From an uncultured Bacteroidales bacterium (GTDB lineage Bacteria > Bacteroidota > Bacteroidia > Bacteroidales > UBA3663), in assembly GCA_905235375.1 (NCBI GenBank), contig CAJOLH010000010.1:1-64000 (forward strand): DNA of 64,000 bases, written 5' to 3'. A model generated the notes under the pieces. It made no database searches and was not told where the DNA came from. It saw nothing but the letters and a program-made list of their open reading frames with translations. The first letter of the stretch is position 1. Each line of letters begins with the position of its first letter. A program made the translations under genes and the position numbers. Positions 2,151-24,378 of this stretch are shown here, piece by piece.

Positions 2151-2825
2151 ATGATCATTAATACACTTACTATCACTTACTCTCCATTGCTTAGCCTCGA
2201 AGAGGTTCCATACTTTCGTGGCGCAGTTCTAAAGGCATTGTCTGATGATACAGACGTTCTCCTCCATAATCATATTGACAGCAACTTCCGATATGAATAC
2301 CCTCTCGTTCAATACAAAAGTGTCGGAGCTAAAGCAACTATAATGCTGATAGGCGAAGGTGTTGAGATGCTCAACAAGTTGATGCCTATTTGTAATACAT
2401 ACATAAACATCGGTTATCGTCATTCCATGATGAAGGTGGAGAAAGTTTCTCCCATGCAGATTGAAATAGAGCTGATCGAGCCGAAACGTTACCGCATTGA
2501 ACACTGGCTACCGCTGAATGAAGAGAATGACAATCGCTTCGTGAGAATGCAAAGCGATTCCGATCGAATCGAACTGTTGGAGCGCATACTTGTGGGCAAT
2601 CTTCTTTCTATGGCCAAAGGTCTGAATATTCATTTCGAAGAACAGGTGCAGTGCGAGATACAAAGTCTGGACCGTTATCATCTTGTGAAGGTCAAGGAAA
2701 CATTGATGAAGTCTTTTGATGTTGACTTTATCTGTAACATCAACCTCCCAGACCTGATTGGCATCGGTAAGCACGCGAGTTTCGGATATGGGACAATAAA
2801 GCAACATTCAGGACAGGAAATATGA
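2151..2825 (+). CDS. cas6: CRISPR-associated endoribonuclease Cas6
   Basis: Cas6 cuts pre-crRNA inside each repeat to release guide RNAs. The protein is 224 residues, the usual Cas6 size. It ends in the family's glycine-rich loop, seen here as GIGKHASFGYGTI (about residues 204-216). The N-terminal ferredoxin-like start (MIINTLTITYSPLLSLEEVP) also fits. The catalytic residue is not obvious by eye. It sits 49 bp upstream of cas10 on the same strand. The array repeat ends in ATTAAGAC, a plausible 8-nt 5' handle resembling the ATTGAAAC handle of many type III and I systems. Confidence 0.85.
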   Translation: MIINTLTITYSPLLSLEEVPYFRGAVLKALSDDTDVLLHNHIDSNFRYEYPLVQYKSVGAKATIMLIGEGVEMLNKLMPICNTYINIGYRHSMMKVEKVSPMQIEIELIEPKRYRIEHWLPLNEENDNRFVRMQSDSDRIELLERILVGNLLSMAKGLNIHFEEQVQCEIQSLDRYHLVKVKETLMKSFDVDFICNINLPDLIGIGKHASFGYGTIKQHSGQEI

Positions 2826-2874
2826 CAAGAATCAGTTAATACATTAAATAATTAAAATAACAAATCTAACGCTT

Positions 2875-4377
2875 ATGGAAAAATATCTCTATGGAGCGGC
2901 AGTGCAAGGCATTCAGCAGTTCATCTTCAGGACCAACGAACTGAAGGACATTGTTGGCGCAAGTGAGCTGGTGGAGCAGATATGCACAACTGCTTTCAAC
3001 GAATTTGCAGTCAACGGTGAATCCGTCGTTCGCGCTGCCGGTAACATCAAGTTTATCTTCAATAATAAATCCGATTGCGAAAAAGCTGTTCGAGAGTTTC
3101 CTAAAAAGGTAATGACGATGGCACCTGGTATAACAATTAGCCAAGCCGTTGTCCTTTTGGGAGAAGATTTTGGTAAGGCCATAGATAATGTCGAGGACTT
3201 ACTGAAAGAGCAGCGTAATAAGCCCGCTCGAAGTGTGACCTACGGACTAATGGGAGTGAAGCGTGCTAATAATACAGGTTTGCCTGTCACAAAAATAGCT
3301 ATAGAACCATACAAGGAGAATGGAGAGACCAAATCTAAAGAGGTTTTTCAAGATGAAGCTTCGGAACAAATAAGCCGTTTTGTACGAACCAAAAAGCTTT
3401 GTGAGAAGAGCTTCGGGGAAGAATGGCTTTCCCATAAGGAAGTGGCTTATGATATCTCTGATTTAACAGACAAGAACGATTGGATAGCCGTAATTCACGC
3501 TGATGGCAATGGGTTGGGCAAGGTAGTCCAAAAAGTAGGCAAAGACAAAGATGACTTCAGAGAATTTTCCGAAAAGCTGGACAAGGCAACAAAGGAAGCT
3601 GCGAACAAGGCATACGAAGCTGTTAAAGATAAGTTCAAACTAAAGGTAGTAATTCCAATTCGTCCGGTTGTCCTCAGCGGAGATGATATGACCGTCATTA
3701 TACGCGGCGATTTAGCATTGGATTATGCAACTGAATTTATCAGAGCATTTGAGATAAAGACCCAAGAAAAATTAAATCCTATTCTTAGGAAGTGGCATGT
3801 TTTTGCTGAAGATAAGGATTATCTTACAGCGTGTGCTGGAATTGCCTATATAAAGTCCTCTTATCCTTTCTATTATGGTTATCAGTTGGCAGAGGAATTG
3901 TGCGGAGAAGCCAAAAAGGATACCAAGGCTATTCATGGTAAGGAATCCGACTATCTGCCTCCTTCTTGCCTGATGTTCCATAAAGTTCAGGACAGCTTCA
4001 TTTTTGACTATGAAGATATTGTAGAGCGAGAGCTTAAGGCCACTGATGACCTATCTTTTAAGGCAGGCCCTTATTATATTCGTGAACAAGCTCAGAAGTA
4101 TGAAGTCTCACTTGCTCAACAATTGACCAAGCAACTTGACACAGAAAATGGAGAGGGCCTGAGGTCGGGCATCAGAGATTGGATTAGTCTCCGTCTTGAG
4201 AATAAGAACAAAGCTGAACAGCGTAAGACCAGGATGCTTCAGATTTTTACCGATGAAAAATTACAAAACACGGTTAAAAAACTTACCGCCGAATCGGACA
4301 ATCGTTGCTTAGCATACGACGTACTGGCTCTCTATACGATAATGAATCAAAAAACTAAAGACGACAATCTAGTATGA
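2875..4377 (+). CDS. cas10: Type III Cas10, short form without HD domain
   Basis: Cas10 is the large subunit of type III complexes. Its palm domains make cyclic oligoadenylate from ATP when target RNA is bound. At 500 residues this is short: it begins directly with the first palm-like domain (KYLYGAAVQGIQQFIF), with no N-terminal HD nuclease. A conserved segment HADGNGLG lies at residues 208-215. The cyclase motif reads S268-G269-D270-D271, a GGDD variant keeping both aspartates, so signalling is probably intact. Lack of HD implies no Cas10 ssDNase activity. The stop overlaps the next start by 4 bp (ATGA), so translation is likely coupled. The downstream CARF effectors support a signalling role. 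Confidence 0.9.
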   Translation: MEKYLYGAAVQGIQQFIFRTNELKDIVGASELVEQICTTAFNEFAVNGESVVRAAGNIKFIFNNKSDCEKAVREFPKKVMTMAPGITISQAVVLLGEDFGKAIDNVEDLLKEQRNKPARSVTYGLMGVKRANNTGLPVTKIAIEPYKENGETKSKEVFQDEASEQISRFVRTKKLCEKSFGEEWLSHKEVAYDISDLTDKNDWIAVIHADGNGLGKVVQKVGKDKDDFREFSEKLDKATKEAANKAYEAVKDKFKLKVVIPIRPVVLSGDDMTVIIRGDLALDYATEFIRAFEIKTQEKLNPILRKWHVFAEDKDYLTACAGIAYIKSSYPFYYGYQLAEELCGEAKKDTKAIHGKESDYLPPSCLMFHKVQDSFIFDYEDIVERELKATDDLSFKAGPYYIREQAQKYEVSLAQQLTKQLDTENGEGLRSGIRDWISLRLENKNKAEQRKTRMLQIFTDEKLQNTVKKLTAESDNRCLAYDVLALYTIMNQKTKDDNLV

Positions 4378-4940
4378 AGACAATCAAATATGAAATAGAG
4401 TTTTTTTCAAACTGGCACTGTGGCTCGGGCTTGGCCGCTGGTGCAGATGTCGATGCTTTAGTCATCAAAGACAAAAACGGAATGCCCTACATCCCAGGTC
4501 GCACGCTGAAGGGGCTACTTCGTGATGCCGCAACCATCCTTTTCGAGGATAAGGGTAAGGTTGTCGATGTCATCTTTGGAGTGTCTGGCGATATGGACGG
4601 CCATCGGACGGGCAGCGCATTCTTCAGCAATGCGACCCTGCAACCTGCCGAGTATCAGTATATCTTTGCAAATGAGTTGACCGAATACCTCTACCAGTCT
4701 TTCGCTTCTACAAGCATTGATGAGAATGGAATTGCAAAAGATGCTACACTTAGAAAGATTGAAACCGTAGTCCCTTGCAAGCTGGTGGGCGAGATAATCA
4801 ATGTTCCCGAAGACGATGACACAAAAAGGGTGTTGGAAGATGCCATGCATTACATCAAGCGCTTGGGAACAGGCAGAAATCGTGGCTACGGCCGTTGCAA
4901 TATAACTATAACCGAAGTTATTAACGAAATGGAAGCATGA
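4374..4940 (+). CDS. Type III RAMP protein, single Cas7 (Csm3-like)
   Basis: This 188-residue backbone subunit would bind crRNA and cut target RNA every 6 nt. The Csm3-type core is clear: CGSGLAAGADVDALVIKD, then GMPYIPGRTLKGLLRD, and the glycine-rich GTGRNRGYGRC near residues 170-180. D27 lines up with the catalytic aspartate of Csm3 (D33 in Csm3 numbering), and D25 is adjacent. It overlaps cas10 by 4 bp and is followed after one base by the csx10-like gene. The assignment to Cas7 is solid; the exact position in the filament is inferred. Confidence 0.85.
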   Translation: MKTIKYEIEFFSNWHCGSGLAAGADVDALVIKDKNGMPYIPGRTLKGLLRDAATILFEDKGKVVDVIFGVSGDMDGHRTGSAFFSNATLQPAEYQYIFANELTEYLYQSFASTSIDENGIAKDATLRKIETVVPCKLVGEIINVPEDDDTKRVLEDAMHYIKRLGTGRNRGYGRCNITITEVINEMEA

Positions 4941-4941
4941 T

Positions 4942-6411
4942 ATGACAAAGACACTGAAATTCAAATGCACGCTGCTGAGCGATGTGGTTCTAAGCCAGAC
5001 ATCAAGCAGTGAGGGCAATCAGAAAACTCTTGACTTCATCCCTGGGAACAACTTCCTCGGAATTGTGGCCAGTAAGATGTATAAGGATCGTTCCAAAGAA
5101 TCGTTAGAGATATTTCATTCGGGCAAAGTCCGTTTTGGCGATGCTCATCCGTCAACTGGTGGTGTCAGAGGTCTGAAAGTGCCTGCCTCCATGTATTATC
5201 CCAAGTTCGGTTCTGCAAGTGAGGAATGTTATATCCATCACTTGACCGATCTTGGCAAGCAAGAGATTAAGGATAAGCAGTTAAAACAGTGCCGTGAGGG
5301 TTTCTATTCATTTATAGATAAAACTGGCAAACCTGTTGAGATCGACAAAAACTATACCATCAAATCAGCATACGATAGCGAAAAACGTCGCAGCAAGGAT
5401 GGCAAGATGTTTGGCTACGAATCTCTTCCCAAGGATCTTGTGCTGTACTTTGAGGTGGAGTCAGACTTGTCTGATCAGCTCACCGAAGCTATAGCAAAAG
5501 TCCTTTGTGGTAAGAAACAAATTGGGCACTCCCGTTCTGCAGAATTTGGCTTGGTCAATATCGAATCGGAAGATTTCAAGGAGATAGAATCCTCTAAGGT
5601 CGAACCTAACACAAACTATATTACAGTATATGCCGATGGTCGCCTGGTTTTCTTCGACAAAAACTTTGAACCGACCTTACAGCCAGAGGCAGATGACTTG
5701 GGTGTAAAAGGTGGAGAGATTGATTGGTCGAAGAGTCAAATACGCACCTTCCAATATGCTCCTTGGAACGGCTGGCGTCACACCTATGATGCCGACCGTT
5801 GCGGCATAGAGAAGGGAAGTGTCTTTGTGGTTAAGCTGAACGACAGATCCTGCCCTGAGAAGAGCAATTATGTCGGTGCTTACAACAACGAAGGCTTTGG
5901 TAAGGTGATTTATAACCCTACATTCCTTGCTGGTAATCAGCAAGAGCTAGGCAAGGCGCTCTTTACATTGGAGGCGAAAGAGAACAAGAAAGCAAAGAAA
6001 ATGACCCAAGAACAAAAAGAGTCCAAGGCATCGAGCCTCCCTAAGCCCGATTCTTCGCTGATCGATCTTCTGATTCGTCGGCAAAGAGATGTCAAGAATG
6101 ACAAGTCTGTATTTGAGATTGTACAAGCTGAGGTAAAAGACCTTGAACCTATATTCCAAGGTGAACAATTTGCATCTCAGTGGGGATTCATTCGCAGTTT
6201 GGCTATGTCAATCGAAGACAATGAAAAACTTTATTCTGCTGTTGAGACATTTTTAAGTCATGGAGTCGCTGAACTCAAATGGAGTGAACAAAGTCGAAAG
6301 GCTCGTCTTATGGCAATCATGGCTAAATATAAGAATAAGGATTTACAAAGTATAATGATAAATCTGGCATCAGAGATGGCAAAGAAATGTAAATCAAAAG
6401 AGGATAACTGA
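4942..6411 (+). CDS. Csx10-like (Cas5-type) RAMP protein with helical C-terminal extension
   Basis: The N-terminal portion matches the Csx10 pattern of type III-D systems: LLSDVVLSQTSSSEGNQKTL, then DFIPGNNFLGIVASKMY, and a later glycine-rich KKQIGHSRSAEFGLV around residue 200. Csx10 is the Cas5-like subunit that caps the 5' end of the crRNA. At 489 residues it is longer than the RAMP core. Residues from about 350 form a charged linker and then a helical region of about 110 residues containing SQWGFIRSLAMS. This tail may be a fused Cas11 small subunit, since no separate cas11 gene is visible. The RAMP part is well supported; the Cas11 reading is inference. Confidence 0.8.
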   Translation: MTKTLKFKCTLLSDVVLSQTSSSEGNQKTLDFIPGNNFLGIVASKMYKDRSKESLEIFHSGKVRFGDAHPSTGGVRGLKVPASMYYPKFGSASEECYIHHLTDLGKQEIKDKQLKQCREGFYSFIDKTGKPVEIDKNYTIKSAYDSEKRRSKDGKMFGYESLPKDLVLYFEVESDLSDQLTEAIAKVLCGKKQIGHSRSAEFGLVNIESEDFKEIESSKVEPNTNYITVYADGRLVFFDKNFEPTLQPEADDLGVKGGEIDWSKSQIRTFQYAPWNGWRHTYDADRCGIEKGSVFVVKLNDRSCPEKSNYVGAYNNEGFGKVIYNPTFLAGNQQELGKALFTLEAKENKKAKKMTQEQKESKASSLPKPDSSLIDLLIRRQRDVKNDKSVFEIVQAEVKDLEPIFQGEQFASQWGFIRSLAMSIEDNEKLYSAVETFLSHGVAELKWSEQSRKARLMAIMAKYKNKDLQSIMINLASEMAKKCKSKEDN

Positions 6412-6412
6412 T

Positions 6413-7849
6413 ATGAGAAACCAATATAGATTTCTGGCCCGAATAGTCATAGAGGCCATATCGCCACTTAATATCGGCAGTGGCAAAAAAGGAATCAAGA
6501 CCGATTCCCTGGTCTTAAGAGATGCCAATGGCCTGCCTTTTATTCCTGGTACAACGATTGCTGGGCTTTTAAGGCATTCCTACACCGTGGAGAGAAAAGA
6601 AGGCGAGAACGAGAAGGAGTTTAAAAAGAAACTGGAGGATCTTAGGGAACCTTTGATGGGAAGCCAGAATTTAGGGTCTCCTCTTATCATCACAGAGGCC
6701 AAGATGCTTGACAGCGATGGAACCGTCCTTGATGGCATCGACATCCAAGAAAGACTGAATAATAACGCATTCTTAGATCACTTCAGGGAACTTCCTATTC
6801 GCCAACATGCCAAAATCAACCATCGAGGGACTACCGAAAAAGGTGACAAGTTCGATGAAGAGATAGTGCTGAAAGGTACTCGTTTTTGCTTTGAGATGGA
6901 GATGCTTTCGGACAACGATGATGAAAGCGAGTTCAAGCATTTTATCAAAGCACTGAATTCTGAGACTTTCCGCGTAGGTTCAGGAAGTCGTGCAGGTTTC
7001 GGTGAGATTAAGATAGTCCAAGAGCATTGCCAGTATAAGACGATTGACTTCGCTATTCCTAAGCAGAAAGACTGGTATCTCAAAAAATCTTCATCTTTGT
7101 GCCAGCCTTGGGATGATGCAGATGATGAGTTTCCGCTTGCCGAGGAAGCATCTTCTGTATGGACAAACTATGAGCTGGAATTGCAACCCATCGATTTCAT
7201 GCTGTTCGGTTCTGGACTAAGTAACGACAAAGCTGATATGACCTATGTCAGAGAGTCATTTGTCGATTGGAGCAATGGCACAGCAGAAATTAAAAAGAAA
7301 GAAAGTGTTGTGCTTATACCTGCTTCTTCAATCAAGGGAGCTCTTTCACATCGTCTGGCCTTCTATTATAATAAGCTGAGTAAAGTATATGCCGATAAAT
7401 TGCCTGATCGCAAGAAGTTAGACGATTTCGTCGGAAAGAACAATGAAGCAGTCAAATCTATATTCGGTTCAGAAGGTGAAAAAGATGCTGACGGCAAGAT
7501 GAAGAACAAACTTCGTGGTAATGTTCTAATTTCAGACATTATTCAGAAGGGAAATAACATCTCCTCCAAAGTCCTGAATCACGTTTCCATCGACCGCTTC
7601 ACGGGTGGTGCAATCGACGGAGCATTGTTTAATGAAGAAGTGCTTTATACCAAGGGCATGACGTTTAATCTGAAGCTTATGGCCAATAGTGCAGCTTTAA
7701 AGGCTAAATATTTTGAACAGGCATTTGAAGAGGCAATGAAAGACATTTGTAGAGGCATGCTTCCTTTGGGAGGTGGTGTAACCCGTGGCAACGGCTGTTT
7801 TGAAGGTAAACTTTACAAGAACGGAGAACTAATTTATGCAAACAATTAA
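6413..7849 (+). CDS. Tandem Cas7-Cas7 RAMP protein
   Basis: Two RAMP (Cas7) domains are fused in 478 residues. Domain 1 (about 1-215) has LNIGSGKKGIKTDSLVLRD, LPFIPGTTIAGLLRH and a glycine-rich GSGSRAGFGEI. D31 matches the Csm3 catalytic aspartate. Domain 2 (about 240-478) has MLFGSGLSNDKADMTYVRES, IPASSIKGALSHR, the Csm3-like loop SIDRFTGGAIDGALFNEEV and a final LGGGVTRGNGCFEGKL. Which aspartate of domain 2 is catalytic, if any, is unclear. The gene starts 1 bp after the Csx10-like gene and overlaps the next by 14 bp. A double Cas7 is known in the fused III-D variant. Confidence 0.85.
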   Translation: MRNQYRFLARIVIEAISPLNIGSGKKGIKTDSLVLRDANGLPFIPGTTIAGLLRHSYTVERKEGENEKEFKKKLEDLREPLMGSQNLGSPLIITEAKMLDSDGTVLDGIDIQERLNNNAFLDHFRELPIRQHAKINHRGTTEKGDKFDEEIVLKGTRFCFEMEMLSDNDDESEFKHFIKALNSETFRVGSGSRAGFGEIKIVQEHCQYKTIDFAIPKQKDWYLKKSSSLCQPWDDADDEFPLAEEASSVWTNYELELQPIDFMLFGSGLSNDKADMTYVRESFVDWSNGTAEIKKKESVVLIPASSIKGALSHRLAFYYNKLSKVYADKLPDRKKLDDFVGKNNEAVKSIFGSEGEKDADGKMKNKLRGNVLISDIIQKGNNISSKVLNHVSIDRFTGGAIDGALFNEEVLYTKGMTFNLKLMANSAALKAKYFEQAFEEAMKDICRGMLPLGGGVTRGNGCFEGKLYKNGELIYANN

Positions 7850-8231
7850 GATTAACAAGTGCGAAGGCTACCTTTGGTTGAGCGACCGACAGGAGCCCCG
7901 GGTCTATCAAGACGAACCGATAGACATCTGCGTTGACGAAACCGTGAATCCTTTTGTTGTAGAGGGCCAGCTCTATGACAGAGAGAACATGATATCATAC
8001 AGCATTAAATATGTCGATGGAAGGTATTTGATTCATCTGTATGATGTAAAACAAGAGGATTTCAGCAATCCGGATAATGAATTGAAGACCTATTATGCCA
8101 ATCGAATGGGGAATTTGCGTCTTGAGTTTCTGCGTTATTGGGAAGAAATTCCTGATAAGAAATGTTTGGGCATGACAGTGCTCACTTTTACTAAAAATGT
8201 ATTTGTTGGATTTAAAGATAAGGAGAATTAA
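7836..8231 (+). CDS. Small type III CRISPR-associated protein of unknown function
   Basis: This 131-residue acidic protein overlaps the double Cas7 gene by 14 bp and ends 2 bp before the large RAMP gene, so it is surely part of the operon. It has no glycine-rich RAMP loop, no catalytic motif I recognise and no signal peptide. The aromatic, charged sequence (YLWLSDRQEPRVYQDE; FLRYWEEIP) recalls the NCBI family of type III accessory proteins named TIGR04423, but that is from memory. By position and size it occupies the slot of Csx19 in the III-D variant, which is an inference. Confidence 0.7.
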   Translation: MQTIKINKCEGYLWLSDRQEPRVYQDEPIDICVDETVNPFVVEGQLYDRENMISYSIKYVDGRYLIHLYDVKQEDFSNPDNELKTYYANRMGNLRLEFLRYWEEIPDKKCLGMTVLTFTKNVFVGFKDKEN

Positions 8232-8233
8232 TT

Positions 8234-10468
8234 ATGATACATGCACCTTATAATTTTGTGCCTTTGTCTGAGAATGTTTATTTCCCTAATTGGGCAGATA
8301 TCATTTCTCAAGATATTCCGTTCACAGATGGAGAGGATGGGGAGATAGAAATATCAATCGAGAATCTTTCACCTTTGTTTGTTAGAGATGGACATGTGAA
8401 AGAAGAATCTACAGAGTGGTCTTGTCATATCGTAGAGGGCACAGAGAAGAAGTATTTTATACCTGCGTCTACACTCAAAGGATGCTTTAGAAGTGTCCTT
8501 GAGATACTTTCTTTTTCAAAGATGTGTAGATACAATGATGACTTTTTTGGATATCGTTCATTCACGACTCAAGTTTCTAGTACGTATGCGAGCAAAATGA
8601 AGAATGTTAAGAATTGTGGTTGGCTATATCTAGAAAATGGTAAATACTATATTATGGAATGCTCTAAAGGTATAGTTAAGATTCCACATTTCATATTAGA
8701 AAAAATTTTTCCTGATTTTGTTAAAGGGGAAGACCATAAGACAGCAAAGGTTAAACAAACAAGTATTGGAACATTGGATAGCCCGTTTCCTGAAATAGAA
8801 GTTGAATCATCTAAAGTCAAAGGATCAATCCATATTATGTGTGCAATTGTTCATAGCGGAAAAAAAATTGAGTACTCGGTGTCGGAGGAAAAGCTTTCTT
8901 CTTTGAAAGAACAATCAAAGGAAATGGCATCTTTAATAAAAAAAATTGAATCATTATTAAGTGGGAAATACAAAGTTGTATGCACTGGTTATATGAATGG
9001 TAAAAAAGTCGAGTATTTGTTTTCTGATGAAACCCGATCGGCTAAAGAAGTTAATGATGAAGTAATCAAAAAGTTCAACATTCACAAATATACTCCATAT
9101 TTCGCTGGTGAAAGAGGCAACAAAGGCTATTTGCAGGAAATGCTCTCTAAGGGGGAAAAAATACCTGTGTTTATAGAGAAAACCAATGGGATAATTACCA
9201 ATATAGGAATAACTCGAATGTTCCGATATCCATATAACTACTCTGTAAAAGACCAAGTGAAAAAAGTTCAAGAGTGGAGCGAAGATAGTAGGTTAGATTT
9301 ATCTGAGGCTATTTTCGGATATGCCAAATCTGATGATCAGCTGAGAGGAAGGGTGCATTTTGGACATGCATTTTGTACTACAATTATTAAAGACGGAGAG
9401 TGCTCTCCTATGACTGGTGTTTTTGGCCAGCCTCGAGCTTCTTATTTCCCATTGTATCTAAAGCAGGAAAACAATAGAGTTTTGACTTATGACTCAAATA
9501 TCCCTATTGCAGGCAGGAAACGATACAGAATTGTGAAGGGATTCCATACGGTTAAATTGAGTGAAGGGAACGGTAATGAAAAGACAAAGACATCATTTCG
9601 GCCATTGCCAGCTAGAAAAGTGTTTGTCGGCAAAATTAGAGTGCATAACCTTCGCAAAGTTGAAATTGGTGCCTTGTTATCGGCAATAACGTTTCATGGT
9701 AATTCGGTACAAGGCGTTTACCACAATTTGGGGTTGGCAAAGGCATATGGATATGGTATCGTTAAGTGTACTATATCAAGACTGAAAGGTCTTAACTACT
9801 CTGAAGAAGAGTATTTAAGAGCTTTTGAAGATGAGATTGTGTCTTACATCAGAGAATCTTATAAGGATGATTCCTTTACTATTCAAGAAGATTCATCTAT
9901 TCAGATGCTTGTCAAGATAGCAGAATCTACTCATTTAAAAAATGATATGGAGCACATGAAGCTTGGAGATTTTGAACAATACAAAGAAAGTAGAAACTTT
10001 TCAAAATTGAAAGAGCCGAGTGAGATTAAACTTAAAAGTATGGATGAAGTGAAATCTGACTACGTTAAGCAAAGAGCATATTCTTTATTGGAAGAGTTAC
10101 GAGGCGTTCCTTCACCTAGAAACATAGATAATCCCGATGTCATCAAAGAACAAATAACAAAATGGGAATCTGTAAAAGAAGTCCTCGAAAAGAACAACCT
10201 ATCGACAACAGAAGTTGAGCTTATGCTGACTCAACTTAAAGAGCGTCTCTTTATCCTTGAGAATCCTACAACTTTTAGTGTCGGTGATATAGTTAAAGCG
10301 AAATGTTTTGCTCCAAAGAAAGTTCGAGTAGATGGATACGATTACGATATTCAGCTTGTAATCCCTAAATGGGAAGCCGACCGAATAGTCGGACAAGAAA
10401 TTAGTACTAAGATCAAGCAAATATCCAAAGCTGGTAAAATAGTACAATTGGAATATGTAGTTGATTAA
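8234..10468 (+). CDS. Large TIGR03986-like CRISPR RAMP protein
   Basis: At 744 residues this is the largest RAMP protein here. The N-terminus (APYNFVPLSENVYFPNW, then DIPFTDGEDGEIEISIENLSP) matches the TIGR03986 family of type III-associated RAMPs as I remember it. IPASTLKGCFRSVLE near residue 80 is the RAMP core motif, and a Cas7-type segment SAITFHGNSVQGVYHNLGLAKAYGYGI lies near residue 500. Between them is a long insertion (about 120-330). Residues 520-744 are helical then beta-rich. It closes the operon and is likely an extended Cas7 subunit with an inserted domain. The coding DNA is more AT-rich than upstream genes. Confidence 0.8.
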   Translation: MIHAPYNFVPLSENVYFPNWADIISQDIPFTDGEDGEIEISIENLSPLFVRDGHVKEESTEWSCHIVEGTEKKYFIPASTLKGCFRSVLEILSFSKMCRYNDDFFGYRSFTTQVSSTYASKMKNVKNCGWLYLENGKYYIMECSKGIVKIPHFILEKIFPDFVKGEDHKTAKVKQTSIGTLDSPFPEIEVESSKVKGSIHIMCAIVHSGKKIEYSVSEEKLSSLKEQSKEMASLIKKIESLLSGKYKVVCTGYMNGKKVEYLFSDETRSAKEVNDEVIKKFNIHKYTPYFAGERGNKGYLQEMLSKGEKIPVFIEKTNGIITNIGITRMFRYPYNYSVKDQVKKVQEWSEDSRLDLSEAIFGYAKSDDQLRGRVHFGHAFCTTIIKDGECSPMTGVFGQPRASYFPLYLKQENNRVLTYDSNIPIAGRKRYRIVKGFHTVKLSEGNGNEKTKTSFRPLPARKVFVGKIRVHNLRKVEIGALLSAITFHGNSVQGVYHNLGLAKAYGYGIVKCTISRLKGLNYSEEEYLRAFEDEIVSYIRESYKDDSFTIQEDSSIQMLVKIAESTHLKNDMEHMKLGDFEQYKESRNFSKLKEPSEIKLKSMDEVKSDYVKQRAYSLLEELRGVPSPRNIDNPDVIKEQITKWESVKEVLEKNNLSTTEVELMLTQLKERLFILENPTTFSVGDIVKAKCFAPKKVRVDGYDYDIQLVIPKWEADRIVGQEISTKIKQISKAGKIVQLEYVVD

Positions 10469-11284: not shown

Positions 11285-12406
11285 ATGCCAAAGATTCACA
11301 TCGCTTTAGTAGGGAAACAAACAACGCCTGTTTGCCAGGTGATTGAGCACGTCAAGCCCAATCAGCTGATCTTGCTGCCTTCACAAGATTCTCATCAATA
11401 TGCCGAGGCTGTCAGGACTCAGTTCGATGCACAGATCGATTGCGACATCTATGACCTTTCTGTCGATGATATATCTGCAATCCGTACTGTGGCGGTAACT
11501 ATAGCAGAAGCTATTCCTCAAAATTATGAAGTCAGCCTCGACTTGACCAGCGGTGTCAAGCCATGGGCTTTGATATTCGTTGAGGTCTTCAAAGAAAAGC
11601 TGCCTCAGTCAGATATCTATTATGTGTCTCTCCAGACCAGCAAGCTGATCAACATGTCGAAGTCTGAAGTTGTTGGAGAAGTGGATTTCGACTACAACAT
11701 GCAGTTTAGATTGCTTGGGCACAATTTCTCGGACTATACACTGTTCACCGAATATACTCCGAAAGACGATGTTGCTCTTGGAGCTTTAAAAGGTTTGTAT
11801 AAGAAGAATAGCAAGCGATTCACGGAGCTTATGATGAAATTTGTAGATTATGTGAAGCTTGGCAATCTTTCTAACGCAGATGACATCAATTTTGAGGATA
11901 AAAAAGGGAAAGTCAGTTGGAATGCAAGGACTCAATCGATGATGATTGGTCTCATGGACAACCAAAACGTGAGGTTTTCATCTCCACACGCATGGCATCT
12001 TGCCACTAACACCGGGTGGTTTGAGTATTACGTTGCAAAGATATTGGCACAAATCTTTCCGCCCGACCAGATATTCATGAACTGTCATTTTAAAGGTTCG
12101 GACAATAAAGACTTGAATGAGGTGGACATCATCGTCAACACTGGAAAGAAACTGCTTTTTGTCGAATGCAAGACCCAAATAAAGGACTCTAACGATGTAG
12201 ATAAGTTTGCGTCGGTGGTGCGTAACTATGGGGCATTGAGCAGCAAGGCACTTTTCGTAACTTATTGGGAAATGTATCCCAATGGTCGTGAGAAATGCAA
12301 GAACTCTGGAATTACAACCTACTTTATGTCCTCAAATAAGGACATTGAGCATGTTGAAAAGCTTAGCAATCTGCTGAATCAGATTATCAATAAGTCGAAC
12401 CTATAA
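11285..12406 (+). CDS. CARF-PD-(D/E)XK nuclease, Card1/Can2-like
   Basis: This is a cyclic-oligoadenylate-activated nuclease. At 373 residues it matches Card1 (about 370). The N-terminal Rossmann-like CARF domain (1-150) starts MPKIHIALVGKQTTPVCQVI and contains the ligand-site motif LDLTSGVKPWALIF. The C-terminal restriction-like domain (about 240-360) has W-F-E-Y-Y-V-A-K-I-L, then D281 in NEVDIIV and E294-C-K296 in FVECKT, the D-ExK catalytic set. Card1 and Can2 cut or nick DNA, and some also cut RNA, when bound to cA4. It lies 13 bp upstream of the CARF-HEPN gene, so the two effectors are co-transcribed. Activator size is unknown. Confidence 0.88.
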   Translation: MPKIHIALVGKQTTPVCQVIEHVKPNQLILLPSQDSHQYAEAVRTQFDAQIDCDIYDLSVDDISAIRTVAVTIAEAIPQNYEVSLDLTSGVKPWALIFVEVFKEKLPQSDIYYVSLQTSKLINMSKSEVVGEVDFDYNMQFRLLGHNFSDYTLFTEYTPKDDVALGALKGLYKKNSKRFTELMMKFVDYVKLGNLSNADDINFEDKKGKVSWNARTQSMMIGLMDNQNVRFSSPHAWHLATNTGWFEYYVAKILAQIFPPDQIFMNCHFKGSDNKDLNEVDIIVNTGKKLLFVECKTQIKDSNDVDKFASVVRNYGALSSKALFVTYWEMYPNGREKCKNSGITTYFMSSNKDIEHVEKLSNLLNQIINKSNL

Positions 12407-12419
12407 TTACAATTCAACT

Positions 12420-14171
12420 ATGGCACGCAAAGTTTTCATTTCGTTTTTGGGATATGGAGATTGTCACTATGTAAAGCCTGGTAGTGATTATGAGATTTCC
12501 AACCCATACATTCAGATAGCAACGCTTGACTATTTGGATAAACATGTCGCTAAATGGGAGAAAGGAGATATAGCCCTTATTCTTTTGACAGACGAGGCTG
12601 AGAAAAAGAATTGGCTCCCTCATGACTTGACTAACCCCAAAACAAAGGAGATAACAGCCCATGAACGGGGGCTTGAGTTAAGAATGAAGGAAATGAATCT
12701 TCCATTTTCAATCGTGCCTATAAAAAATCTTCCAGAAGGTGATAATGATCAAGAAACCATGACCATCTTTATGAATACATTTGATGTTCTTCAAGATGGT
12801 GACGAATTGTATTTTGATATCACGCATGGTTTCCGATTCTTGCCAATGTTAGTAATGGTATTGACCAATTATTCCAAGTTTACTAAAACATGCAAGGTTA
12901 AGTGGATTAGTTACGGCAAGACCTTACCTCCTTTCAAAGACGGCTCTATCATTGATCTTCGCACTTTATCTGTGCTTCAAGATTGGACCACTGGCGCTGC
13001 AGATTTTGTCGACAATGGGAATGTAGATAAACTTACAGGACTATCTAAGGAAGAAATGTCCCCCATTCTCAGTGAAGCCAATGGAACAAATGCTAACGCC
13101 AACAACATTAGTAATTTTACTAAAAAGTTAGAATTGGTCATTAACGATATTAAAATGTGTCGTTGTTATAACATCATTGAAGCTACGGGCATTAAAAATT
13201 TAAGAGAATATGCCGATCGTATCGATATGTCCTCTGTAGTTCAGCCATTCCATCCCATTGTAATAAAAATAATGGATTCGCTTAAAGGCTTTTCGTCTGA
13301 GAGAAGAGTTTATAATGGAATAGAAGCTGCCAAATGGTGTCTTTGTCATTCATTATATCAGCAAGCTATTACATTCCTTGAAGAAACAATAGTTTCATTT
13401 GTCTGTGAGAAGAATGATATAGAATTATTGAATATGGACAAGAGAACTATTGTAACGAATAGTTTTGACATTCTAAGAGATAATAAATCTGAAAACAGTT
13501 GGAATTTAGGCAAAGATGAATCAAAATTTGAAGAATATAAAAATCTATATAGACAAATACTGCAGGATTCATTTGTAAGAAAATATTATGCTTTAGTTTG
13601 TTCGATCAAGGATTTACGCAATGACATGAATCATGCAGGAATGAGGAATGACACATCAAAAGACTCTGGTGGCAAAAACAAAAAGAAAAAGCCTAAACCT
13701 AATGCAATGTCTGCTGACAGATTAAAAGAAAAAATAAAAGAATATATAGATTTATTTTCTGATTTATTAAGTCAAGATAATATTACTAAGAGCGTTAGCC
13801 TGAAAAGAGCAAATATCTTCCTCAACCTCTCCAACCACCCCTCTACCAACTGGAATGAGGAGCAACTGAAAGCGGCCCTTGACTTTGGCGAAATCAAAGA
13901 TCTGCCTTTCCCCAATATCGATGAGAGCCTGGATGAAGCGGGCATCGAAGCACTGAGCGACGATTATCTTGAGAAGATCAAGGAACTGTCGGGCGGAGAA
14001 CCTTGCACAGTGCATATCATGGGCGAGATGACGTTCACTTACGCCTTGGTAAACAAACTAAAGGCCGAAGGCTATACTTGTGTAGCATCCACATCTTGGC
14101 GTGATGTGGAAATCATGCCCGATGGGAGCAAGCAAGTGAAGTTCCATTTCTGTAGGTTCCGTAAATACTGA
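12420..14171 (+). CDS. CARF-HEPN ribonuclease (TIGR02221/Csx1-like) with fused C-terminal domain
   Basis: The N-terminal CARF domain (1-190) opens with KVFISFLGYGDCHYVKPG and carries D133-I-T-H-G-F-R in the ligand-site loop, typical of the TIGR02221 Csx1-like group. A helical HEPN domain (about 270-450) contains R400-N-D-M-N-H405, the R-x4-H RNase motif. After a lysine-rich linker (KNKKKKPKP), residues 460-583 form a separate small domain: IFLNLSNHPSTNWNEEQL, IKDLPFPNID, TVHIMGEMTFTYALV and CVASTSWRDVE. This resembles small CRISPR proteins of the Csx15/16/20 type proposed as ring nucleases. The HEPN coding part is AT-rich and the C-terminal part is not, which suggests a recent fusion. RNase assignment is firm; ring nuclease is inference. 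Confidence 0.85.
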   Translation: MARKVFISFLGYGDCHYVKPGSDYEISNPYIQIATLDYLDKHVAKWEKGDIALILLTDEAEKKNWLPHDLTNPKTKEITAHERGLELRMKEMNLPFSIVPIKNLPEGDNDQETMTIFMNTFDVLQDGDELYFDITHGFRFLPMLVMVLTNYSKFTKTCKVKWISYGKTLPPFKDGSIIDLRTLSVLQDWTTGAADFVDNGNVDKLTGLSKEEMSPILSEANGTNANANNISNFTKKLELVINDIKMCRCYNIIEATGIKNLREYADRIDMSSVVQPFHPIVIKIMDSLKGFSSERRVYNGIEAAKWCLCHSLYQQAITFLEETIVSFVCEKNDIELLNMDKRTIVTNSFDILRDNKSENSWNLGKDESKFEEYKNLYRQILQDSFVRKYYALVCSIKDLRNDMNHAGMRNDTSKDSGGKNKKKKPKPNAMSADRLKEKIKEYIDLFSDLLSQDNITKSVSLKRANIFLNLSNHPSTNWNEEQLKAALDFGEIKDLPFPNIDESLDEAGIEALSDDYLEKIKELSGGEPCTVHIMGEMTFTYALVNKLKAEGYTCVASTSWRDVEIMPDGSKQVKFHFCRFRKY

Positions 14172-14176
14172 ATGCC

Positions 14177-15220
14177 ATGAGACGATTTGATTTCCTGGAT
14201 CTGGACCAGATTTTACTGAAGACCCCTGAGAAATACTGGACTTACGAGGACATACTGGCCGAGATACCCAGTGCAAATTTCAAGAGAGGTGATAAGATCA
14301 AATACAACGAGTATTTCAATAGTGTAGAACAGGCCAAGCGCAAGATTGCCAACATTCTTCAGAAAAATGGTCTTCAGCTTGACTACAAGAACGGCAAGGA
14401 TGCGAAGTTGGGGTTCAGGTATCCACAAGGCATTGATGACCCTATTCATTTCGAGAAAGAGGAATTCCATAAGTTACGCACCAAGCAGTTGCTTCGCTTT
14501 GTTGGCTCCTCCATAGGGCTTTTTCCCCCGACATGGCTGGCCGATATCGTAGAAGGTGCAAATCGCAGGGGCAAGATTATCGGCTTTGACCAGAATTTGC
14601 TTGCCGAGCACATTCTGCTGGTACCTGAGATTTATGATGCCATCGAAAAGAAACGTGTTATCACCTTCCGTTATCAGCCACGATATGACCATGAAAAAGA
14701 GAGGGATGTCACCCTTCACCCCTATTTCTTGAAGGAATATAACGGACGATGGTTCCTTTTCGGCAATGAGCCGGAACAAGGAGCCAAGATAAAGTCTTTC
14801 GGACTGGATCGTATCGTTGGCCACGTCGCCGTTCGTGACGACATTGAATATATAGCCTCCAAAGAGAAATCCTTTGCACCATCCTACTTCAAGGATATCG
14901 TCGGTGTCACCATCCAAGAAAAGAAGAATAAGCCCAAGCTTATCCAGATTGAGACACTGGACGGTTACACTCACGGCCGCATCCGAACCAAGCCCTTGCA
15001 TAGTTCACAGCAAGAATTGAGACCATATATCGACGGTCAGGCAGGCCTCTTCTCCATCAAAGTCATCCCCAACAATGAGCTCGACACATTGTTGCTAAGT
15101 TTCGGTGCACGTATTAGGATTTTGGGGCCTCAATCCTACGTCGATTCTTTCCGTGAGAAGGTGCGAAATCTCGGCAACCTCTATTTCAACAACAAGAACT
15201 CTGCCGAGAAGAACGACTAG
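14177..15220 (+). CDS. WYL-domain transcriptional regulator
   Basis: The 347-residue protein has an N-terminal winged-helix-like region (1-110) and a WYL domain (about 150-245) with AIEKKRVITFRYQPRYD, LHPYFLKEYNGRWFLFG and FGLDRIVGH. The C-terminal WCX-like part ends near FREKVRNLGNL. WYL proteins sense nucleic acids or nucleotides and often control CRISPR and other defence loci. It starts 5 bp after the CARF-HEPN gene, so it is produced with the effectors and may autoregulate this operon. Its DNA targets are unknown. Confidence 0.85.
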   Translation: MRRFDFLDLDQILLKTPEKYWTYEDILAEIPSANFKRGDKIKYNEYFNSVEQAKRKIANILQKNGLQLDYKNGKDAKLGFRYPQGIDDPIHFEKEEFHKLRTKQLLRFVGSSIGLFPPTWLADIVEGANRRGKIIGFDQNLLAEHILLVPEIYDAIEKKRVITFRYQPRYDHEKERDVTLHPYFLKEYNGRWFLFGNEPEQGAKIKSFGLDRIVGHVAVRDDIEYIASKEKSFAPSYFKDIVGVTIQEKKNKPKLIQIETLDGYTHGRIRTKPLHSSQQELRPYIDGQAGLFSIKVIPNNELDTLLLSFGARIRILGPQSYVDSFREKVRNLGNLYFNNKNSAEKND

Positions 15221-16345: not shown

Positions 16346-16744
16346 ATGTCAGGCAGCAATGTCACTTATAACAAGCAGCACAACATCTTCCTTTCGGACG
16401 GTTACACCAGTGCAGCTGGGAACACCTATTTCCAGGGCATTCGCCTGAATGACCGTCTGCTGGTGAAGTATGACTTCGGACAGGGCTATGCCTACCTCTT
16501 CCTCAATGGCATCCGACTCTATTGTCATGATGGATATGGCTGGAAGGAGTTTTCGTCCCGCAGTTACTACTGCTGCTGTTGGAACGAGACATACGCTCGT
16601 CAGGAGTGCATCGGCATGCTCAGGGACTTCCTGCTATCGCAGTCGAAGATGCTCGGGCAGCCCATCGATCAGAATCTGGCTGAGGACTTTGCCACGGCGA
16701 TGATTCGAACGGTAGTGGACAACAAGCCTCCCCTGCTTCGATAA
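16346..16744 (+). CDS. Hypothetical protein, paralogue of the next gene
   Basis: The 132-residue product has the segment FLSDGYTSAAGNTYFQGIRL, then NDRLLVKYDFGQGYAYLFLNGIRLY and DGYGWKEF. These line up over about 60 residues with the protein at 16834-17340. I recognise no family. An AGGAGGT at 16267-16273 lies 70 nt before this ATG and in a frame without ATG, GTG or TTG next to it. The reading frame is open from there, so a longer protein with an unusual start is conceivable but unlikely. Cysteines cluster at SYYCCCW. Confidence 0.55.
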   Translation: MSGSNVTYNKQHNIFLSDGYTSAAGNTYFQGIRLNDRLLVKYDFGQGYAYLFLNGIRLYCHDGYGWKEFSSRSYYCCCWNETYARQECIGMLRDFLLSQSKMLGQPIDQNLAEDFATAMIRTVVDNKPPLLR

Positions 16745-16833: not shown

Positions 16834-17340
16834 ATGCAGGGGAATGTACTGGACATGATCCTGCCCAAGAGAGGAGAGCGCCGACCTGCAGGTCTGCCCA
16901 TTTGGGATGAGAGCCGACACATGTTCATCGTCGATGAGCATGAGAGCCAGGCTGGACACCGCAGCTACAAGGGCGTAAGAGTGACTGATCGTTTCGCCAT
17001 CGTCGAGTACATTGGCAACTACCACAACTGGTGCTACATCAATGCCATCGAGCTATATGCCAACGATGGCTACAAGTACAAGTTGGTAGGCAAGTGCCAG
17101 CTCGGCAAGGAGTTCTATGATGCAGAGCTCATTCGCCAGAAGACCGAGGAGATGATGTTCGCCTTTACGAAGTCGCAGTATCGCATGCTCAATCGAACGG
17201 TTGATGAGGACACCCTCAGGAAGCAGTCGGCGGCACTGATTGACAGCAGTTATCGCAGCATGATCAACGAGGACACAGCAGAGCTCATGGAGCAGCTTAC
17301 TCCTCTATTACCCAAGGAGACTACATATATTAACCTTTAA
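16834..17340 (+). CDS. Hypothetical protein, paralogue of the preceding gene
   Basis: This 168-residue protein shares with its neighbour the pattern MFIVDEHESQAGHRSYKGVR, then TDRFAIVEYIGNYHNWCYINAIELY and NDGYKYKL. It adds a longer helical C-terminus. The pair must come from a tandem duplication followed by strong divergence. No catalytic motif or signal peptide is visible. It lies 39 bp upstream of the Pif1-like helicase on the same strand. Confidence 0.6.
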   Translation: MQGNVLDMILPKRGERRPAGLPIWDESRHMFIVDEHESQAGHRSYKGVRVTDRFAIVEYIGNYHNWCYINAIELYANDGYKYKLVGKCQLGKEFYDAELIRQKTEEMMFAFTKSQYRMLNRTVDEDTLRKQSAALIDSSYRSMINEDTAELMEQLTPLLPKETTYINL

Positions 17341-19573: not shown

Positions 19574-20560
19574 ATGGATATCGTACTCAACACATTCGGC
19601 ACGAGCCTCAACCGCGACAGCGAAGGGTTTGTCATCACCAATCAGGACGGACGGCAGCGCATCCCCATGCAGGGCATACGCTCCATCCAGGTAGGCAAGG
19701 GCGCACAGATCACGAGTGATGCCATTATGCTTGCTATCGACAACGAGATTGAAGTGCTTTTTACCGACCGTGCTGGGCAGCCGAAAGGACGGGTCTGGAG
19801 CCACAAGTACGGGTCTGTATCGACCATTCGAAAGGGGCAGCTGGCCTTTACGAAGAGTGTCGATGCCGTAATCTGGATCAAGGAAATTCTGTCTCAGAAG
19901 CTTTCCAATCAGCAGGCCCTGTTGCTCATGCTGCCCGAAAGCGGTGACGAGATATTGGAAACTCGCCGTCAGAAAGCCATAGATGCCATGGAGGACTATA
20001 GGCAGAAGCTGATGAAATTGCCCACCAATGTCGTGGTCGGTGATATAGCCCCCCAGCTCAGAGGATATGAAGGAGCTGCATCAAATGCCTATTTCGAAGT
20101 GATGAGTGCATTTATCCCCAGCCAATACTGGTTTCCTACGCGAAGCCAGCACCCTGCAATGGATGTCTTCAATGCCATGCTCAATTATGGCTACGGCATA
20201 CTCTACAGCCGCATCGAAGGCGAGCTGATCAAGGCAGGTATTGACCCGTATATCGGTGTTATGCACCGCGACGAATATAATCGTCCCGTGCTGGTCTATG
20301 ACATCATCGAACTTTATCGCATCTGGGTCGATTATGTGGTTTGCAATCTGGCCTGTCAGGAGGTCATCACCGACGATTTCTATTCGGTCAGCGACGACGG
20401 CTCCTGCTGGTTAGAGACCTTGGGACGCAAAGTGCTCATCCAGTCGCTCAACGACTATCTGGAGGAGCACATACAGATGCGCGACTTGACGCGTTCCCGT
20501 GGCACGCAGATACAGCTTCATGCACAAAACCTCGCACAAAAGTTCAAGAATTATAACTAA
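19574..20560 (+). CDS. cas1: CRISPR integrase Cas1
   Basis: Cas1 inserts new spacers at the leader end of the array together with Cas2. At 328 residues it is full length. The metal-binding set is present: E166 in RGYEGAASNAYF, H231 in GVMHRDEYNRPVL and D243/E246 in VYDIIELYR. The N-terminal beta domain begins MDIVLNTFGTSLNRD. There is no fused reverse transcriptase or Cas6 domain. It has its own promoter and is followed after 14 bp by the primase-polymerase gene. Confidence 0.95.
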   Translation: MDIVLNTFGTSLNRDSEGFVITNQDGRQRIPMQGIRSIQVGKGAQITSDAIMLAIDNEIEVLFTDRAGQPKGRVWSHKYGSVSTIRKGQLAFTKSVDAVIWIKEILSQKLSNQQALLLMLPESGDEILETRRQKAIDAMEDYRQKLMKLPTNVVVGDIAPQLRGYEGAASNAYFEVMSAFIPSQYWFPTRSQHPAMDVFNAMLNYGYGILYSRIEGELIKAGIDPYIGVMHRDEYNRPVLVYDIIELYRIWVDYVVCNLACQEVITDDFYSVSDDGSCWLETLGRKVLIQSLNDYLEEHIQMRDLTRSRGTQIQLHAQNLAQKFKNYN

Positions 20561-20574
20561 ATCCAATCAACGCC

Positions 20575-21606
20575 ATGTTATTAGTAGGAAAAAACATTCA
20601 AGCCTCAGCCGAACCGCTGCAGAAGATCGAAGTGGAGTACCTGTTCCAGAGTCTTCAACACCCTCATCCGGTGGTCGAATCCCGGATGCGTCAATTGAGG
20701 ATTGTTCGCCAGACGGACGCCAAGATGTACTCGCGGCTCAAGAAGACACTGCCCTATTTTGTGTGTGGCAACTTCAATCCCCCCATTAGAAAAACGGAGA
20801 ATTTTGCCTACATCGAATATTTTGTGGTCGATATTGACAATCTCTCCGAGAAGCAAATCGATCTGGCATCTGCCCGTAACTGGATAGAGACAGACCCTCG
20901 TGTCGTTATGTCGTTCGTTTCGCCCAGCGAAGACGGACTGAAGGTGATGTTCCGTCTGAAGGAGCGCTGCTATGATGCAGGCATCTACAAGTTGTTCTAC
21001 AAGGAGTTCGTGCATCGTTTCTCGCAGCAGTATAATCTCGAGCAGGTAATCGACTCATCCACATGCGATGTGAGTCGAGCCTGTTTCATCAGCATCGATC
21101 CTAATGCATTCTATAATCCAACCGCCGAAACCATTGACTTGAAGGAGTTTCTTCCCATCGAGGATCCGAGTTCGCTGTTCGCAATGAAGCGGACCTTCGA
21201 CCAGGAGGAGAAAGAACAGGAGAAGGCTGCCGCAGCTGATGCTCAACTTGTGAAGTCTGAACCAGCCGATGACGCATTGGACAGCATCAAGCAAACGTTG
21301 CAGATGCAACGCGAGCATCGCGCCAAGGTTCCCAGCTTACCCATCTATGTACCCGAACGACTTGAACAAATCATCGACAAGCTGACGAACTTCATCGAGC
21401 ATCATGGCATCAACGTCTATGATATTGTCAGCATCCAGTATGGCAAGAAACTTCGTTGCAAGTTGGGGGCAAGACTTGCTGAAATCAATCTTTTCTACGG
21501 CAAGCGAGGATTCTCGGTGGTTCAGACACCCAAGGCCTGTGTGTCGGCAGAACTGAATTCAGCCGTGGCTGAACTGGTGCAATACTACATCGACGATAAC
21601 ACATAG
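20575..21606 (+). CDS. CRISPR-associated primase-polymerase (CAPP), BT4734-like
   Basis: The 343-residue protein resembles the BT4734/VirE N-terminal type of archaeo-eukaryotic primase. Motif I is D86-I-D88 in FVVDIDNLSEK. A SPSEDGLKVMFRL segment (116-128) fits motif II, and D165 in CDVSRACFISIDPNAF fits motif III. A charged helical linker (about 215-250) joins a C-terminal domain of about 90 residues. CAPPs have been shown to work with Cas1 and Cas2, probably making or repairing prespacer DNA. Its place between cas1 (14 bp) and cas2 (5 bp) is strong support. The zinc-binding motif seen in some primases is not obvious. Confidence 0.85.
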   Translation: MLLVGKNIQASAEPLQKIEVEYLFQSLQHPHPVVESRMRQLRIVRQTDAKMYSRLKKTLPYFVCGNFNPPIRKTENFAYIEYFVVDIDNLSEKQIDLASARNWIETDPRVVMSFVSPSEDGLKVMFRLKERCYDAGIYKLFYKEFVHRFSQQYNLEQVIDSSTCDVSRACFISIDPNAFYNPTAETIDLKEFLPIEDPSSLFAMKRTFDQEEKEQEKAAAADAQLVKSEPADDALDSIKQTLQMQREHRAKVPSLPIYVPERLEQIIDKLTNFIEHHGINVYDIVSIQYGKKLRCKLGARLAEINLFYGKRGFSVVQTPKACVSAELNSAVAELVQYYIDDNT

Positions 21607-21611
21607 CCGCC

Positions 21612-22094
21612 ATGTCGAAGAAGAAAAACCCCATGACAGTCGAAGAGATTTTAGCCAAACTCCATGAGGCAGGACTTTCCTCGACCAATGTCATCAAGAC
21701 ATCCAATCAGGATGAAATGTCGGAATTAGATACGCTTGACAATCGAGTCAAGCGTATCCTTAGCCTAACATCCAACCATTATTCAAAACCAAAGAATATG
21801 CTGTTTTTTGTAATGTACGACATCGAAAGCAACAAAGTGCGTCGTCTGGTAGCCAAGTATCTGATTCGGCAAGGATGTTTCCGCATCCAGCGTTCCATCT
21901 ATCTTGCCGATATGCCCTTCGAGAAATATGAACAGATCAAGTCAGACCTCGCCGAGGTTCAGGCAGCATACGAAAATAAGGACAGCATTTTTGTCGTGCC
22001 GATATCGACCGACTATCTGAAGGCAATGAAAGTGATTGGGAAAGCCCTTGATGTCAACATCATCATGCATTCACAGAACACGCTGTTTTTCTGA
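21612..22094 (+). CDS. cas2: Cas2 with N-terminal extension
   Basis: The Cas2 core starts near residue 61: MLFFVMYDIESNKVRRLVAKYL, then FRIQRSIYLADM. D70 is at the position of the conserved metal-site aspartate. Cas2 bridges two Cas1 dimers and holds the prespacer. Usual Cas2 proteins are 85-100 residues; this one is 160 because of about 60 extra N-terminal residues (TVEEILAKLHEAGLSSTNV and onward). The next in-frame methionines are M8, M36 and M63; M63 would give a near-standard Cas2 but without room for the first strand. The gene ends 238 bp before the array. Confidence 0.9.
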   Translation: MSKKKNPMTVEEILAKLHEAGLSSTNVIKTSNQDEMSELDTLDNRVKRILSLTSNHYSKPKNMLFFVMYDIESNKVRRLVAKYLIRQGCFRIQRSIYLADMPFEKYEQIKSDLAEVQAAYENKDSIFVVPISTDYLKAMKVIGKALDVNIIMHSQNTLFF

Positions 22095-22332: not shown

Positions 22333-24283
22333 CTTCGAGACCATCATCCATTACAACAAGGATTAAGACGAAGGATGGCAGCGATAAGATTCATGATAAC
22401 TGCAAATCTTCGAGACCATCATCCATTACAACAAGGATTAAGACTTCACAATCCACCCTATGATTCTTCACATATTTGCAATATACTTCGAGACCATCAT
22501 CCATTACAACAAGGATTAAGACCTTGCGATCTGCTGCATAACTTGCATTTGTTGCAAGCTTCGAGACCATCATCCATTACAACAAGGATTAAGACATTCA
22601 CTATGCGCTTGCGATTCTCTGGAGTGTCATCACTTCGAGACCATCATCCATTACAACAAGGATTAAGACGTTCATTGATGATGTCTTCTCTTGTTGTCAC
22701 TTCGAGACCATCATCCATTACAACAAGGATTAAGACCATAATTGAGACTCTTGCAAGTCTCGGTTTTAACTGTTCTTCGAGACCATCATCCATTACAACA
22801 AGGATTAAGACCGGTCTGACCCTCGAATGTCGGTGACTGCGGACGGTCCTTCGAGACCATCATCCATTACAACAAGGATTAAGACATATTGTGGTTCTTC
22901 AGAACCTCTTCAATCTCCTTCGAGACCATCATCCATTACAACAAGGATTAAGACTTCATCAGCCTCGGTTCTTGGAATCAGCTTGCCATTTCTTCGAGAC
23001 CATCATCCATTACAACAAGGATTAAGACAAATCCAGACGAATTTCGTCACCCACTTGAAGTGATGACTTCGAGACCATCATCCATTACAACAAGGATTAA
23101 GACTCGTTCTTGCGCCATGCTTCCACATTGATGAAAGCCGACTTCGAGACCATCATCCATTACAACAAGGATTAAGACTTGATCGAGAGTAAAATGTGAG
23201 AATCTGGCTATACTCTTCGAGACCATCATCCATTACAACAAGGATTAAGACTACCTGGCACCACGTTAGACTCCGCGAGACGATTGTCTTCGAGACCATC
23301 ATCCATTACAACAAGGATTAAGACAAGAGCGGAAATTTCTTCTTCATCCCTAAGCCCCGCCTTCGAGACCATCATCCATTACAACAAGGATTAAGACTCG
23401 GGTATTTGCTCGAGGTTGGCGAACGGCATGAGCACCCTTCGAGACCATCATCCATTACAACAAGGATTAAGACCTCCAAGAATGAAAGCGAACACTACGG
23501 GGATCATGCTCTTCGAGACCATCATCCATTACAACAAGGATTAAGACTTGGAGAAGCCCATCTCATAGAACTCCTTGCGATGCTTCGAGACCATCATCCA
23601 TTACAACAAGGATTAAGACGCCCGTCTTTTAAGAACAAGACTTGCCCCTCAGGGGCTTCGAGACCATCATCCATTACAACAAGGATTAAGACCACTATCA
23701 GTGCAAACACACTTAGCGTATTCGGGGTTTCTTCGAGACCATCATCCATTACAACAAGGATTAAGACATCCTCCATTGTGGGAATCAGTCTGAAATACTG
23801 AAGACTTCGAGACCATCATCCATTACAACAAGGATTAAGACGCAGTTTCAAAAGGTGCTTTGAAACACCTGCTTCATCACTTCGAGACCATCATCCATTA
23901 CAACAAGGATTAAGACACTTAACTGCTGCAATTTCTGCATCATTGAAATTACGGCCTTCGAGACCATCATCCATTACAACAAGGATTAAGACCTATTGTT
24001 GAATGCCAAGAATAGAATACTTTTGTTAGACTTCGAGACCATCATCCATTACAACAAGGATTAAGACATATATTCCAGCATGAGTTTTACTTTAGTTCCT
24101 GCACTTCGAGACCATCATCCATTACAACAAGGATTAAGACTTTTGGTGAAATTTATGTTTGCGATGTACTTGGTTTCTTCGAGACCATCATCCATTACAA
24201 CAAGGATTAAGACAGCCTTACGAGGGCGCTTGCCCTCAAAGGTTGAGCGGGTTTCGAGACCATCATCCATTACAACAAGGATT
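22333..24283 (+). CRISPR. CRISPR array: 27 repeats of 37 bp, 26 spacers
   Basis: Repeats begin CTTCGAGACCATC and end CAAGGATTAAGAC. I located 26 copies that look identical, starting at 22333, 22408, 22486, 22559, 22633, 22700 and so on to 24177. Copy 27 (24252-24283) has T for C at the first base and lacks the last five bases. Spacers are 30-41 bp, mostly 35-39. The 3' end ATTAAGAC fits a Cas6-made 5' handle, so transcription is rightward from the leader after cas2. Near-zero repeat decay implies an active array. No spacer matched anything I noticed in the window. Confidence 0.97.
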
Positions 24284-24328: not shown

Positions 24329-24378
24329 CCGGAAATTCCACTCTTGTGAAACTGAGTTCCTAATTTAAAATGAAGGAA

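Follow-up and report, generated by a model that had tools for sequence, protein, structure and literature searches.

Does an RNase that answers the cyclic nucleotide signal of a type III CRISPR system carry, in the same polypeptide, the means of ending that signal? This question is raised by one gene in a 64,000-nucleotide stretch from an uncultured Bacteroidales bacterium (contig CAJOLH010000010.1; the whole stretch is hereafter the window). The gene belongs to a type III-D-like locus with the following features:

2151-10468, + strand: type III effector-complex operon encoding Cas6, Cas10, RAMP proteins and Csx19 (TIGR04423), by profile matches
2875-4377, + strand: Cas10 (type III-D-like) with an SGDD palm motif (PDLC02058 Cas10d, E 1e-157; PF22335 palm2)
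11285-12406, + strand: Can2/Card1-like CARF-PD-(D/E)xK nuclease, the second effector (PF23400 and PF09002 above cut-off; PDLC01889, E 5e-83)
12420-14171, + strand: csx1-csx20 fusion gene, 583 aa (PDLC01843 CARF_HEPN_CSX20, E 8.4e-120, residues 3-583)
12420-13019, + strand: CARF sensor domain with a DITHG motif at residues 133-137 (TIGR02549, TIGR02221)
13200-13680, + strand: HEPN RNase domain with RNDMNH (R400-H405) intact (conservation; PDLC01032 Csx1/Csm6 CARF+HEPN)
13779-13805, + strand: disordered linker, residues 454-462 (pLDDT below 50)
13812-14168, + strand: Csx20 domain (a ring nuclease family), residues 465-583 (PDLC01397; pLDDT 97.2; CARF/SAVED-like fold)
14177-15220, + strand: WYL-domain regulator, directly downstream of the fusion gene (PF13280, E 4e-12)
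19574-22094, + strand: Cas1, CAPP-B-like primase-polymerase and Cas2 (PF01867, PF08800, PF09827)
22333-24290, + strand: CRISPR array of 27 repeats, ends approximate

A Pif1-type helicase lies between the WYL regulator and Cas1. The SGDD motif is among the palm variants of Cas10 proteins in effector-bearing loci (PMC11229360), and no HD domain was recognized in the window's Cas10 in profile searches. Several neighbors are unusual in their own right. The protein encoded between Cas1 and Cas2 (20575-21606) has a BT4734-like N-terminal domain, a weak match to the TBP-TOTE domain, and 32% identity to a Runella RefSeq protein named "CRISPR-associated primase-polymerase type B." At the edge of the locus, a protein encoded at 475-2016 combines DUF7017 with a pair of S1/CSD-like domains from TOTE conflict systems, and similar proteins occur near Csx20 in two other loci (L032 and L046). 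The interval between the WYL and Pif1 genes holds two small paralogues (16346-16744 and 16834-17340; 26% identity, E 1e-15) for which no Pfam family was found, and a 42-base unit is repeated in tandem in 10.7 copies just 3' of the array (24378-24826).

The frame of the fusion gene has no internal stop, and its product aligns end to end with the PADLOC CARF_HEPN_CSX20 model (399 bits; model positions 2-498 of 498), which places the three domains in one chain in the order of that model. In the CARF domain, the DxTHG profile TIGR02549 scores 38.6 bits against a cut-off of 21, and D133, T135, and H136 are invariant in the alignment of relatives; TIGR02221 (TM1812 family; residues 6-206, E 1.7e-20) narrowly misses its cut-off (73.9 versus 76.25 bits), which is an NCBI naming threshold and corresponds to no functional feature. 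The R-x4-6-H active site of HEPN RNases is present as R400-NDMN-H405, with R400 and N401 invariant and H405 nearly so across 30 aligned sequences. By these sequence features, the protein is a CARF-HEPN enzyme of the Csx1 type, predicted from its family to be an RNase, with a C-terminal Csx20 domain. An earlier note on this DNA had likewise proposed a CARF-HEPN RNase with a distinct C-terminal domain, and this division is borne out by the profile matches and by AlphaFold2, which models the domain alone with a mean pLDDT of 97.2 and the whole chain with a pLDDT of 88.0, with a low-confidence, flexible linker at residues 454-462. The top PDB match of the whole-chain model is a Csx1-Crn2 fusion (8y6z, E 8.6e-15). 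CARF/SAVED proteins make up much of the match list of the domain model (Z 5-8), and the ring nuclease Crn1 Sso2081 is found at Z 5.4-5.8; all these values are below 8 and by themselves are no proof of kinship. Sequence searches of the PDB with the whole protein and with the domain alone gave no match.

The family of the C-terminal domain can be narrowed further. It had been likened to the Csx15/16/20 group, and within that group it is specifically the PADLOC Csx20 profile that it matches over its full length (PDLC01397; E 1.8e-34, positions 2-114 of 114). A Csx15 or Csx16 identity was rejected, as the Csx20 profile matches instead; for the CARF_HEPN_CSX16 class, PDLC01842 aligns with residues 6-412 only, and the domain alone matches no Csx16 model. 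Crn2/DUF1874 gave no Pfam match in the domain at E values up to 1. The sequence patterns quoted in support of the original assignment lie at about residues 469-561, in conserved columns: N469, N472, H473, W478, P498, H532, G535, E536, S557, and R561 show no or almost no variation among 61-65 relatives, and all ten positions that are invariant across 61 relatives are present in the window's domain. The NCBIfam Csx20 equivalog, NF040559, is matched below its cut-off (31.7 versus 70 bits, E 1.6e-7). The same profile matches 59 of 61 relatives of the domain (best E 6.2e-12), those scored individually all falling below the cut-off, and 1 of its 25 matches in 395 Bacteroidota genomes exceeds it. The RefSeq-named Csx20 of Persicobacter, in contrast, scores 139.6 bits and shares about 22% identity with the window's domain over 116 columns. 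Since the 70-bit cut-off is a naming threshold of NCBI, the domain is filed under the PADLOC Csx20 subfamily rather than the NCBI equivalog; on sequence grounds it is a member of a Bacteroidota Csx20 subfamily lying below the NF040559 cut-off. The reading of the domain as a ring nuclease is well supported by homology.

What would such a protein do? We consider it probable, at roughly 0.8, that the fusion is a self-limiting, cA4-responsive RNase of the type III system, its ligand, RNase activity, and ring nuclease activity all being those predicted from its families. On sensing foreign RNA, Cas10 would make cyclic oligoadenylate; cA4 would bind the CARF domain and turn on the HEPN RNase, leading to unspecific RNA cutting, while the Csx20 domain would offer a second site for the same cA4 and cleave it to linear products. 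Each RNase molecule would in this way have its own timer, and the Csx20 domain may also remove the signal for the adjoining Can2-like nuclease. The dual activity is expected from homology to Csx20 and from analogy with Csx1-Crn2, for which both activities have been demonstrated and in which two sites compete for cA4, with the CARF domain activating the RNase and the C-terminal ring nuclease removing the signal (PMC7293037). A free-standing Csx20 fully degraded cA4 in one hour at a 100-fold substrate excess in vitro, and the family co-occurs strongly with Csx1 (PMC12409355). Also in favor of this reading are the intact HEPN motif, the retained Csx20 columns, the whole-chain structural match to Csx1-Crn2, the SGDD Cas10 and the second effector of the locus, and the recurrence of fused and neighboring forms elsewhere. 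Against it stand the NF040559 score far below its cut-off, the low identity to the Persicobacter Csx20, the lack of cA4 cleavage by the related Csx15, and the moderate Z-scores to ring nucleases. The domain might instead bind cyclic oligoadenylate uncut, in the manner of a sponge or buffer, or serve as an additional allosteric sensor setting the RNase threshold. This would parallel Csx15, a related family that showed no cA4 cleavage in vitro and for which a sponge role has been suggested (PMC12409355), and would accord with the divergence of the window's subfamily from the NCBI Csx20 model. We nevertheless regard it as unlikely: catalysis is known for a Csx20 (PMC12409355), and the near invariance of N469, N472, H473, Q482, H532, G535-E536, S557, and R561 among the 61-65 relatives would exceed the expectation for binding alone. 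Degradation of a messenger other than cA4 (cA3, cA5, cA6, or SAM-AMP) draws on the observation that a Csx20 also degraded cA3 at high enzyme concentration, but it is very unlikely in a locus whose two effectors, Csx1 and Can2/Card1, are of classes treated as cA4 effectors, given that a census found ring nucleases of effector-bearing loci with cA4 effectors only (PMC12409355). Beyond the self-limiting RNase favored here, we offer as a rather doubtful extension that the Bacteroidota Csx20 may have a chemistry or ligand preference of its own, that fusion may allow this domain to gate the HEPN RNase in cis, for example by passing on or withholding cA4 within the dimer, and that the repeated switching between fused and overlapping genes may then stem from selection for response timing.

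The wider distribution of the domain bears on whether the pairing is real and recurrent. The earlier note had held that its proposal would fall if the domain lacked ring nuclease activity and its homologues were never linked to CARF genes; the homologues are in fact often fused to or adjoining CARF-HEPN genes. Across genome contigs and sampled genomes, there are 13 loci in which Csx1 and Csx20 share one frame, a further locus with a frameshifted fusion, and 23 in which they stand as separate nearby genes, often overlapping, the contig scan having used the fused protein as its query and hence being biased toward linked forms. In another 31 loci, no CARF-HEPN gene was detected within the retrieved stretch, which was frequently short. 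Among 393 genomes sampled from the order, a set with less bias, 29 had a Csx20 match, with fusion in only two, the window's genome and one other (G202). The Csx1 stop and the Csx20 start of many unfused pairs are close together, the latter being within about -10 to +16 bases of the former. That the window's fusion should be an assembly artefact or a non-functional read-through is hardly credible. Its source is a draft assembly in 125 contigs, and the gene is absent from all 14 congeneric genomes; yet its frame is uninterrupted, a PADLOC model of identical domain order exists, and the same fusion recurs in assemblies from named isolates and strains, namely Prevotella multiformis DSM 16608, Hallella multisaccharivorax DSM 17128, Porphyromonas uenonis DSM 23387, and Porphyromonas sp. 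HMSC065F10.

Individual loci show further variations. In L049 (4968-6336) and L058 (4962-6654), CARF-HEPN genes are broken by apparent frameshifts beside an intact Csx20 frame, reflecting either sequencing error or real inactivation. L058 was rejected as an unfused pair because its Csx20 frame begins with HEPN sequence (NHGGYRDD), marking it as the frameshifted fusion counted above. Three loci (L031, L035, and L036) have a tandem pair of CARF-HEPN genes with the Csx20 domain on the second. In L097, a stand-alone Csx20 (1486-1875) is flanked by a DprA-like gene and one for a coiled-coil membrane protein, and no CARF gene was recognized within the short retrieved stretch; a fusion of this Csx20 to another protein was ruled out, the frame being merely a long open one. 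No relative of the window's domain was found in viral contigs and phage records at the sensitivity used; Csx20 has been reported from four phage genomes (PMC12409355).

Neither the Csx20 tree (p-AU 0.0042) nor the CARF-HEPN tree (p-AU 3e-52, two long branches included) unites the fused forms in one clade, which indicates that the fusion state has changed several times. Most branches are weak in both trees, and those that are well supported require at least three to four state changes. The fused or unfused state appears, from these sequence trees, to have changed repeatedly in Bacteroidota. One pair is formed by L039, which is fused, and L052, which is not: their CARF-HEPN rows are sisters with full support, and they have a common gene order of RAMP, Csx19, RAMP, Can2-like, Csx1, and Csx20. 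The discordance of these two loci may or may not reflect a swap of Csx20 domains across lineages (p-AU 0.15).

Base composition had been taken to indicate that the window's fusion is recent. The change at the domain border is there: GC3 is 0.26 for the HEPN part and 0.61 for the C-terminal domain, and, measured between flanking 115-codon stretches in eleven genes of the locus, the largest jump in the fusion gene is 0.40, at codon 465, compared with at most 0.27 in the ten other genes. The inference of recency was not accepted, since it is the HEPN part that is odd and unfused pairs show a similar step. The C-terminal domain (GC 0.49) is close in composition to the genome, to its neighbors, and to the whole window (GC 0.49), and the AT-rich part is the HEPN. 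Across 30 loci, the Csx20-minus-HEPN difference in GC3 averages +0.08 (s.d. 0.09), the window's value of +0.32 being the highest, with the unfused pairs L003 at +0.27 and L017 and L067 at about +0.20. The step fits a chimaeric origin and gives no date.

The pairing had also been said to look different from the known Csx1-Crn2 fusion, but it is not new: the Csx1-Csx20 architecture is already known from the PADLOC-DB 2.0.0 (2023) model CARF2--CARF_HEPN_CSX20 (PDLC01843), whose three domains and their order are those of the window's protein, the priority resting on the name of the model. No study of a Csx1-Csx20 fusion was found in the literature searched, a body outside which the 2020 CARF classification fell. 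The window's protein is about 85 residues longer than the 498-position model and has a lysine-rich insert 3' of the HEPN motif (about residues 412-428; 13653-13703, TSKDSGGKNKKKKPKPN) that is absent from all 29 other aligned relatives. The Csx1-Crn2 protein of Marinitoga piezophila (PMC7293037; 8y6z, 8y7g) likewise joins a CARF-HEPN RNase to a C-terminal ring nuclease; there, however, the latter is Crn2 (DUF1874), whereas here it is Csx20, from which we infer that the two fusions arose separately. Csm6-2-Crn4 and TIR-SAVED-Crn4 (PMC12830947) are also effectors with a C-terminal ring nuclease, but differ from the window's fusion in both the ring nuclease family and the effectors. Stand-alone Csx20 (PDLC01397; NF040559) has a homologous domain with the same motif columns in a type III setting and differs in being unfused, the window's domain being both fused and of the Bacteroidota subfamily below the NF040559 cut-off. 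The new part appears to be the repeated change of fusion state in Bacteroidota.

These observations bear on how ring nucleases are counted. The published census left out proteins longer than 250 aa (PMC12409355), a limit at which the Csx1-Csx20 fusion class would be missed; hence, some loci counted as having no ring nuclease may carry one in fused form. More generally, the fusion would represent a second route to a self-limiting CRISPR RNase besides Csx1-Crn2, and the loci of the same gene order in which Csx1 and Csx20 are joined (L039) or separate (L052 and L032) provide a natural experiment.
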